Source of the DNA: Chloroflexota bacterium
Lineage (GTDB): Bacteria > Chloroflexota > Limnocylindria > Limnocylindrales > CSP1-4
Direction of reading: 5' to 3'
Length of the DNA stretch: 36,522 nucleotides
Assembly: GCA_003171065.1 (NCBI GenBank)
Contig: PMXQ01000083.1
Location: forward strand, 1 to 36,522
Under the pieces are notes generated by a model, which saw only the letters and a program-made list of their open reading frames with translations, was not told where the DNA came from and made no database searches. Of this stretch, positions 12,502-14,835 are shown in pieces. Within the stretch, counting starts at the first letter, position 1. Each line of letters opens with the position of its first letter. The translations under genes were made by a program, and so were the position numbers.

Positions 12502-12565
12502 CGGTCCGGCGACCGCCCGCATTCCGCCCGAGCGTTTGGAGCTGTTCCCGCGTCTGTAGGGTGTG

Positions 12566-13132
12566 ATGGCCGATCGATCGCTTCCGCGCGCCGCGACCGG
12601 AACACGCGCGATCCCCGACGCAGGCTGCGAACGGACGGTCCGGCTGCTGTTCCAGCGCCGCTCGCAGGAGATGTTCGGCTTCGTGCGCCGTCTCGGCCTC
12701 GGTGATGAGGAGGCGTCCGACGCCGTCCAGGAGACGATGCTGCGCCTGTGGCGCGAGCTGGACTCCGGCGCGGAGATCGACGATCCGGACGCCTGGGCCT
12801 TTCGGACGCTGTACCGGGTGAGCATCGACAGCCACCGACTGCGACGGCGGATGGCCGGTCTGGTCGACCGCATCGGCGGCGGGCTTTCGGCAGCCGATCG
12901 GGGCCGCCACGATGGCGACCCGGCGCGAGCGATCGAGGTCGACGCCATCTGGCAGGCGGTAGATCGGCTGCCGGAGCGCCAGCGCGCCGTCCTTTACTTA
13001 CGCTACCGGGCCGATCTGCCGTACGAACGAATCGGTCTGGCCCTGGGGATAACTCCCAGCGCCGCGCGAGGCCACGCGTCCACCGGACTCGGGACTCTAC
13101 GTCGGCGCTTTCAAGCCGAGGACGAACGATGA
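12566..13132 (+). CDS. ECF-type RNA polymerase sigma factor
   Basis: 188 residues. Region 2 is recognisable (LFQRRSQEMFGFVRRL ... DAVQETMLRLWREL ... AWAFRTLYRVSIDSHR), as is region 4 with its helix-turn-helix (VDRLPERQRAVLYLRYRADL then YERIGLALGITPSAARGH). The linker is short and region 3 absent, as in ECF sigma factors. It would direct RNA polymerase to a small regulon on an outside signal. ATG 12566 is chosen; GTG 12563 directly before it is equally possible. The stop overlaps the start of the next gene as ATGA, the usual arrangement for a sigma factor and its membrane anti-sigma factor. Confidence 0.92.
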   Translation: MADRSLPRAATGTRAIPDAGCERTVRLLFQRRSQEMFGFVRRLGLGDEEASDAVQETMLRLWRELDSGAEIDDPDAWAFRTLYRVSIDSHRLRRRMAGLVDRIGGGLSAADRGRHDGDPARAIEVDAIWQAVDRLPERQRAVLYLRYRADLPYERIGLALGITPSAARGHASTGLGTLRRRFQAEDER

Positions 13133-14835
13133 CTCACGACGAAGAGATCGAGGCGGCGCTGAAGAGCCGGCCGGCGGATGAACGGGTCTACGACGAGCCG
13201 CTGGCGATGCCCGCGTTCTCGGTGACTCAGCGGGTTCGCCCGGTCGCGAGGTCGCGTGCCCGGAGCGGCAGATTGAGGCCGCTCGCGGCGTTGTTGGTCG
13301 TTCTGGTCGTCGCCGGCGCGTCGCTCACGTTCGGCTTGTATGGGCCACTCCATCTCGCTCGGTCCGGCCCGGCCGGCACGCCGGCGGTCCAGGGCACGGA
13401 CCAGGGGGAGAATCCTCTCTCTCTCGAGCAGACCGCCGAGGCCAGCGTAGGGCCGTCGGGGCAAATCCGGTCCGGTGGGTTCTGGGCCATAAAGGGCTCG
13501 GCGCTGCTTGTGTCGACCGACGACGGACAGACCTGGCGCGCCCACTCGATTCCCCGGGCAAACATGAACACGCTCGTCGGAGACGCACTGTTCATGCTCG
13601 ACGCGGACCACGCCTGGACGATCACCGACGCCCACACGATCTACCGGACGAGCGACGGCGGAGCCAGCTGGGCCGCCGCGACTCTGCCCGACAACTGCGG
13701 CATCCAGTTCGGTCTGAGCTTCGTAGACGCGTACGTCGGATACGTGATCTGCCTCGACGACTATGCCCGGGCTACCGTGATGAGCACAGACGATGGCGGC
13801 GCGACCTGGCGGGTGATCACAACGAACGCGACCACCGACTCGGGCCCCATCGGCTCGGTCATGGAGGCAACGGACGAGAGGACTCTCTGGGCGGTCTCGA
13901 ACGATTTCGACAACGGCACGCAAGCGCTCCTTGCGGTGAGTCGGGACGGCGGCGCCACCTGGACCGATGCGAAGCTGCCTGCGGTGCCGGCTGCCAACGT
14001 TCGGGCAGAGGACGATGGCAAGCCCGGCTGGTCGGTGAGTCTGCCCACCTTCGTTACGTCCGAGCAGGGCCTCGTCGGGGTACTGGATCGGTCGGTCGGA
14101 TCCTCCGGCGGGCAGTTCTTCGCCACCGGCGACGGCGGGCGGACCTGGAAGGAGGATCCCGAGGCGTCCGGCCAGAATCGCCCCCCGGCAGCGGTTCTGA
14201 CGATGAATTCCTGGGTTGCATATGAGGACTCACCGCCGCAGATCTTGCACACCTCGGACGGCGGCGCGCACTGGACCGCGGTCTCGGCCAGCGGGTTGCC
14301 GGATCCGGCCAACTTCCAGGACGTCGGGTTCGTGGACGAGAGGCACGGCGTCGCCGAGGTGACTTCCGTCCTGCTCGTGACCTCCGACGGCGGCTCGACC
14401 TGGACGGCGCCGGATCTGACGGCAGCAGCCGCCGGGCTGGTGCCGGTGTCCGGCGATGACGAGGCAGCCGTTCGGGCGACGGTCGAGGCCTACGAACAGG
14501 CGAGACTGGCCGGCAATGTGGCGGCCGAGAACGCCGTGCTCTCGGCGGTGTCTCAGATCATGTCCGTGGACACGCCCGACGCTACGCCGACGCCAGTGCC
14601 AACGGGGTTCGAGATCGTGAGCGTGGCTCGCACCGGCCTGGACCTCGATCCTGCCGCCGGCTACGAGAACGTCGACGTCCTGGAGGAAGCCGACTACTCG
14701 CGCGTCTTCGCCGTCACGGTTCGAGTGACGGTCGTCGGCGGTTCAACAACCGAAGAGAAGCTTCTGGTCGCTCCGTTGCTGGGAGCCGGGTGGCGGATCT
14801 GGACGCCCTCAGACTTGACGGTTTCGCCGAAGTAA
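13129..14835 (+). CDS. Probable anti-sigma factor fused to an extracytoplasmic seven-Asp-box propeller
   Basis: 568 residues. Residues 1-47 form a short cytoplasmic segment (DEEIEAALKSRPADERVYDE); a single membrane helix follows at about 48-70; the rest is outside. Seven Asp-box motifs of the form S/T-x-D-G/D-G-x-T-W lie at about 129-136, 174-181, 219-227, 271-278, 333-340, 375-382 and 418-425, predicting a seven-bladed BNR/sialidase-type or Ycf48-like propeller. A C-terminal domain (about 440-568) with a helix followed by strands looks NTF2-like. It overlaps the ECF sigma gene by four bases, so it most likely holds and releases that sigma factor. The cytoplasmic part is too short for a classical zinc anti-sigma domain and lacks its HxxxCxxC. 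The propeller could sense a ligand or cell-wall component; this is inference. Confidence 0.82.
   Translation: MTHDEEIEAALKSRPADERVYDEPLAMPAFSVTQRVRPVARSRARSGRLRPLAALLVVLVVAGASLTFGLYGPLHLARSGPAGTPAVQGTDQGENPLSLEQTAEASVGPSGQIRSGGFWAIKGSALLVSTDDGQTWRAHSIPRANMNTLVGDALFMLDADHAWTITDAHTIYRTSDGGASWAAATLPDNCGIQFGLSFVDAYVGYVICLDDYARATVMSTDDGGATWRVITTNATTDSGPIGSVMEATDERTLWAVSNDFDNGTQALLAVSRDGGATWTDAKLPAVPAANVRAEDDGKPGWSVSLPTFVTSEQGLVGVLDRSVGSSGGQFFATGDGGRTWKEDPEASGQNRPPAAVLTMNSWVAYEDSPPQILHTSDGGAHWTAVSASGLPDPANFQDVGFVDERHGVAEVTSVLLVTSDGGSTWTAPDLTAAAAGLVPVSGDDEAAVRATVEAYEQARLAGNVAAENAVLSAVSQIMSVDTPDATPTPVPTGFEIVSVARTGLDLDPAAGYENVDVLEEADYSRVFAVTVRVTVVGGSTTEEKLLVAPLLGAGWRIWTPSDLTVSPK

Follow-up and report, generated by a model that had tools for sequence, protein, structure and literature searches.

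The window analyzed here is the whole stretch of 36,522 nucleotides of contig PMXQ01000083.1 from a soil Chloroflexota bacterium. It carries a gene for an ECF sigma factor that overlaps a gene for a membrane protein with an Asp-box propeller. The locus raises the question of whether the two products form a sigma/anti-sigma pair and, if they do, how a propeller came to stand in the exported position of that pair. The genome is an incomplete assembly (3.0 Mb, 88% complete), and its closest named relative is Chloroflexi bacterium fen_1050 (genome G043). The host order includes a sister family with genomes of 1.1–1.2 Mb, which fits the described split between Limnocylindraceae and CSP1-4 (PMC13212565); the host family is probably CSP1-4.

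The features of the locus are listed in Table 1. In the Pfam scan of the sigma factor, Sigma70_r2 (E 3.7e-10, residues 28–95) and Sigma70_r4_2 (E 3.3e-10, residues 127–179) both score above cut-off and no other domain is found, so that the protein consists of regions 2 and 4 only, as an ECF (group IV) factor does. The NCBIfam model sigma70-ECF gives 67 bits for the same ORF against a cut-off of 42.9. The element upstream of the gene resembles the typical ECF promoter layout, GGAAC-N16-CGTC. It is kept in all seven syntenic orthologs, while the sequence farther upstream has diverged. The 27-base pattern occurs at one site per genome in 7/7 genomes, always before the sigma gene, and the reversed-pattern control gives 0 sites. 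This ECF promoter layout upstream of the sigma gene indicates a putative autoregulation. A relaxed pattern gives 57 sites in the own genome and 32 in the reversed control, a modest excess. Only 11 nt lie between CGTC and the start codon (window 12551–12566), so that the sigma mRNA may have almost no leader. The sequence GTGATG at the sigma start is retained in six of the seven orthologs.

Table 1. Features of the sigma factor/propeller locus in the window.
Feature	Position	Strand	Basis
ECF-type promoter GAGCG-N16-CGTC	12530..12556 (GAGCG 12530-12534, CGTC 12551-12554)	+	upstream of sigma gene
ECF sigma factor, 188 aa, regions 2 and 4	12566..13132	+	ORF, Pfam, NCBIfam
ATGA overlap, sigma stop/partner start	13129..13132	+	-4 offset in 55/59 homologous pairs
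Membrane anti-sigma candidate, 568 aa	13129..14835	+	ORF, Pfam, hydropathy
Cytoplasmic tail, residues 1-47, signature IExxLRxRPxDExxY (window: IEAALKSRPADERVY); putative sigma-binding part	13129..13269	+	conserved in class A partners
Likely fusion point CGCTCGCGGCG, start of membrane helix	13280..13290	+	near-identical words in L087 tail gene and L006 free propeller gene
Transmembrane helix, ~residues 52-72	13282..13344	+	hydropathy
Asp-box (Ycf48-like) propeller, ~residues 116-430, seven Asp boxes	13474..14418	+	motif count, profiles
C-terminal domain, residues 436-568	14434..14832	+	common to ~590-aa sigma-linked propeller proteins

The partner protein has a single hydrophobic stretch, with the best 19-mer at residue 52 (hydropathy score 2.49). 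The sequence-only reading had described a one-helix membrane protein overlapped by the sigma gene at ATGA, with an inside part of about 47 residues that lacks the zinc anti-sigma motif and an outside part with seven Asp boxes, and all of these hold. Residues 1–47 contain zero Cys and no HxxxCxxC. This tail has no match in Pfam, NCBIfam or PDB, and no similarity to CnrY is detected by hhalign (probability 0.1%). Exactly seven Asp boxes are counted, at residues 129, 174, 220, 271, 333, 375, and 418; shuffled sequence contains 0.046 on average and at most 2. The propeller also scores 62.4 bits with PSII_BNR (PF14870), above the Pfam gathering cut-off of 27, and the PDB profile search matches it with Ycf48/HCF136, xyloglucan hydrolases, sialidases, and sortilin. 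Its coupling to a sigma gene argues for a role other than photosystem II assembly. The claim of a propeller fold rests on the sequence profiles, because AlphaFold2 gives the whole partner a pLDDT of 32 (pTM 0.27) from a two-row alignment of the window and L006 sequences. The C-terminal piece had been called NTF2-like, and this assignment could not be confirmed. Its AlphaFold2 model from two sequences reaches a pLDDT of 62. At E ≤ 0.001 this model matches nothing in the PDB; the top match (E 0.29) is limonene-epoxide hydrolase, an enzyme with an NTF2-like fold. The sole two cysteines of the partner, Cys190 and Cys208 (window 13696–13752), sit near each other within the propeller, and several propellers of class B, defined below, have counterparts to them; a disulfide bond between the two is possible.

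A coupled pair of a sigma factor and a candidate membrane anti-sigma factor is well supported, judging from synteny, overlap, and the covariation described below. The reading that we favor, and consider distinctly probable, is an autoregulated ECF sigma/anti-sigma switch built on a modular minimal tail with exchangeable exported domains, in which a propeller has here replaced an ancestral domain. The sigma factor and its partner would be made together, and the 47-residue inner tail probably holds the sigma factor in check, binding it on the cytoplasmic side of the membrane so that it does not reach RNA polymerase. Once an outside ligand had bound to the propeller, stepwise proteolysis involving an M50 site-2 protease would follow, by which the sigma factor would be freed to transcribe its own operon and perhaps also a small regulon. 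The own genome encodes a full-length M50 protease, which is weak evidence because M50 proteases are near-universal, with matches also in 14/14 control genomes. A glycan or cell-wall fragment as the ligand is a guess, and a doubtful one.

We read about 60 loci of the host family that carry relatives of the sigma factor, each with its downstream gene, and counted 59 pairs. The partner start lies at −4 in most of them (Table 1), and all 59 partners except that of L130 have a helix near the N-terminus, preceded by a tail of 37–75 residues. The exception is a zinc-motif, RskA-type protein with a recognized RskA_C anti-sigma domain. A search of other ECF loci for the motif set, which had been proposed as a check, finds propellers with at least five Asp boxes in 26 of the 59 partners, on several tail types, a share that is inflated since some loci were picked by propeller similarity. 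The remaining partners carry Kelch propellers, LysM, DUF4232, or unknown domains. Kelch-type propellers take the exported position in partners of the ECF sigma genes at L092, L093, L095, L096, and L143, and at least two propeller families are thus apparently in use there. LysM is the exported part in L090 and L094. The sigma partner at L139:3691-6894 has 1068 residues and 12 Asp boxes, and probably contains more than one propeller. The propeller sensor had been regarded as a novelty of this locus; it is instead recurrent in the host family, and the own genome alone holds at least four further ECF/Asp-box pairs (two at L007, one each at L008 and L150).

The same holds when the family is counted from the side of the propellers. 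The coupling would be in doubt if the propellers of all relatives stood apart from sigma genes, and this is clearly not the case. A sigma gene lies directly upstream of 28 family propeller genes in an automatic tally, and L131 and L142, which the tally missed, are paired in the locus-by-locus reading above (28–30 loci), against 7 distinct loci without a sigma gene and 5 more at contig edges. Among the best-matching propellers of other Chloroflexota families, most are lipoproteins that have no sigma gene; sigma-linked ones are found there at five loci in family f17 and one in family f19. PF14870 alone finds class-wide propellers poorly; an alignment of sigma-linked propellers did better.

These distributions bear on a reading in which the partner is an anti-sigma factor and the propeller is an anchoring or scaffold module, that is, a Ycf48-like assembly factor carried along in the operon and not a ligand sensor. 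Ycf48 and HCF136 are among the closest solved propeller homologs. The propeller may indeed have its own function, because membrane-anchored tailless propellers without sigma genes are present in the family (L127, L128, L144, L134) and free lipoprotein forms elsewhere in the phylum. However, Asp-box propellers occur on several tail types at the frequency given above, and Kelch and LysM domains take the same exported position, a pattern that fits a sensor slot. We consider the scaffold role unlikely and keep to an exchangeable sensor on a minimal tail.

The tails fall into groups that follow their sigma factors. Class A comprises the partners of sigma genes scoring >170 bits, the window pair included. 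With this threshold and the motifs set post hoc, IExxLRxxPxDExxY is present in 19/27 class A partners, in 1/32 others, and in 17/1474 background ORF starts. Class B partners share the motif PDLExxLRxYY. The homology between class A and class B tails is not claimed, as hhalign aligns 12 residues only with a probability of 11%. A promoter motif similar to that of the window, which was defined after inspecting some of the scored genes, stands before 18/28 class A sigma genes (shuffles, mean 0.56, maximum 5) and before 1/31 others. In family f5, which belongs to the same taxonomic class, class A sigma genes are likewise followed by tails of class A type. Tail distance tracks sigma distance, with a Mantel Spearman correlation of 0.32 for class A (n = 27) and 0.74 for the others (n = 29; both p = 0.0005). 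This correlation fits the co-evolution of a binding pair, though plain shared descent alone could also give it.

The direction of control should be considered at this point, since the membrane protein could be a positive partner that the sigma factor needs for activity or stability. That its tail has no known anti-sigma signature would agree with such a role. The arrangement of the genes speaks for the opposite: well-studied sigma/anti-sigma pairs have the sigma gene first, an overlapping membrane partner second, and an autoregulatory promoter, and this is the layout of the window locus. Moreover, L130, a locus with the same layout, encodes the recognized RskA_C domain. A positive role is accordingly quite improbable, and we proceed with the partner as a candidate anti-sigma factor.

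A probable origin of the propeller in this pair can be read from the syntenic locus. The window sigma gene sits between genes for an MBL-fold hydrolase and exonuclease III (names read from the sequence alone), and six relatives have collinear flanks on both sides. The sigma factors of these relatives are 63–85% identical to that of the window, and the tail is recognizable in 6/6 and 51–60% identical in the four closest. The exported part, by contrast, varies. In five relatives (G036, G038, G040, G043, and G055; loci L086, L087, L088/L006, L089, and L091) it is a Pfam-less, ancestral domain, mutually homologous among them and unrelated to the propeller, and in the sixth (G041, locus L090) it is LysM. 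Among the seven orthologs, the propeller is found in the window only. It thus appears that one and the same inner tail serves with different, interchangeable outer sensors.

The gene order in fen_1050 is sigma, tail with the old domain, and then a separate propeller gene whose product has the helix and no tail. This product is 79% identical to the window partner from residue 41 on. The DNA of the window matches that of fen_1050 as far as 13206 and then from 13314 onward, and about 1.1 kb is absent in the window; a shared word of ~10 bp lies at the junction, at the start of the helix. The old exported domain was not found in the rest of the own assembly. In the propeller tree, a long branch within the sigma-linked propellers unites the window and fen_1050. 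The window partner looks like the product of a fusion that joined the tail to the propeller where the membrane helix begins and removed the old domain, and fen_1050 is likely to be an intermediate still carrying both domains. In the simplest history, the propeller gene would have arrived beside the operon, and a deletion would then have fused it to the tail. This history needs a further step, either a loss in G038 or a transfer from one lineage to another, because G038 is nearer to the window than fen_1050 by its flanks and yet lacks the propeller. The idea that the fen_1050 propeller is preceded by a decayed sigma/tail remnant was rejected, because 145/1000 shuffles reach the local alignment score of 21. 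An assembly artefact, in which ~1.1 kb was lost from a locus truly arranged as in fen_1050, is a very improbable source of the fusion: the fusion is known from a single metagenome-assembled genome and has the short shared word at its junction, but that word is far below usual assembly k-mers in length, the frame is open through the junction, the flanks are collinear, no trace of the old domain is left elsewhere in the assembly, and the coupling of sigma factors with propellers in general is independent of the window locus.

Tailless helix-anchored propellers without a sigma gene directly upstream are present at L127, L128, L144, L134, and L006:5986-7587, and are possible donors for sensor fusions. 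We further suggest, with moderate confidence, that the tail with IExxLRxxPxDExxY is an undescribed minimal anti-sigma domain that Limnocylindria-like Chloroflexota use as a general inner plug and combine with exchangeable Asp-box or Kelch propellers, LysM, and other domains. On this view, the window and fen_1050 would represent two stages of one natural sensor swap, the arrival of a propeller gene beside the operon and its fusion at the membrane helix.

The principle of a short sigma-binding tail, which had been put forward as new, is already known. CnrY-type class II anti-sigma domains have a short sigma-binding inner part (PMC8103513, PMC7406223), and the N-terminal domain of RsgI6 has 54 residues (1–54) (PMC12203970). 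The SigI/RsgI systems of Clostridium thermocellum (PMC12203970, PMC4711584) share with the present pairs a short inner domain, one helix, swappable outer sensors, and several paralogous pairs per genome. They differ in that the sigma factor here is ECF and not SigI, the sensor is a propeller and not a carbohydrate-binding module, and no autocleavage domain is recognized. Pfam scans of the whole partner and of its tail find no RsgI N-terminal domain. The partner has the RsgI layout of short tail, one helix, and exported domain in architecture, ligand binding being putative. RsgI is best read as the nearest working analogue, and the partner as RsgI-like in layout and unrelated in sequence.

The pair resembles CnrH/CnrY in having an ECF sigma factor and an inner part of fewer than 50 residues before one helix (47 residues here, within the class II length). 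In contrast, the tail has no CnrY similarity, and CnrY (94 aa) lacks a large exported domain, sensing being left to a separate protein, CnrX. Class II domains are also marked by structures in which they wrap around the outside of the sigma factor. Membrane-bound class I anti-sigma factors (RseA, RskA, ChrR; PMC7406223) show the same gene order and membrane topology, but their ASDI has ~101 residues on average (PMC7406223); the tail of 47 residues, without HxxxCxxC and without a Pfam or NCBIfam match, falls outside both the zinc and non-zinc forms. With Ycf48/HCF136 (PDB 2xbg, 5oj3, 8am5) the partner shares the Asp-box propeller and a PF14870 score over cut-off, whereas its propeller is fused to an anti-sigma-like tail and an extra C-terminal domain, in a non-cyanobacterial host. 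ECF57 sigma factors, which have WD40-like C-terminal extensions (PMC8999054), likewise tie propeller-type repeats to ECF control, but do so within the sigma factor itself, to which the repeats are fused. A limited literature search found no paper linking anti-sigma factors with Asp-box propellers. The part of most interest is the sensor swap at one syntenic locus, which the sequence-only reading could not have revealed.

ECF signaling is a main bacterial route for sensing the outside, and the gain of new input domains is poorly documented. A syntenic locus with a constant sigma factor and tail, a changing exported domain, and a likely intermediate in fen_1050 makes sensor exchange testable. 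The very short natural tail might also serve designed sigma switches. For the uncultivated soil Chloroflexota, the finding offers a possible job for many of their unannotated propeller proteins.
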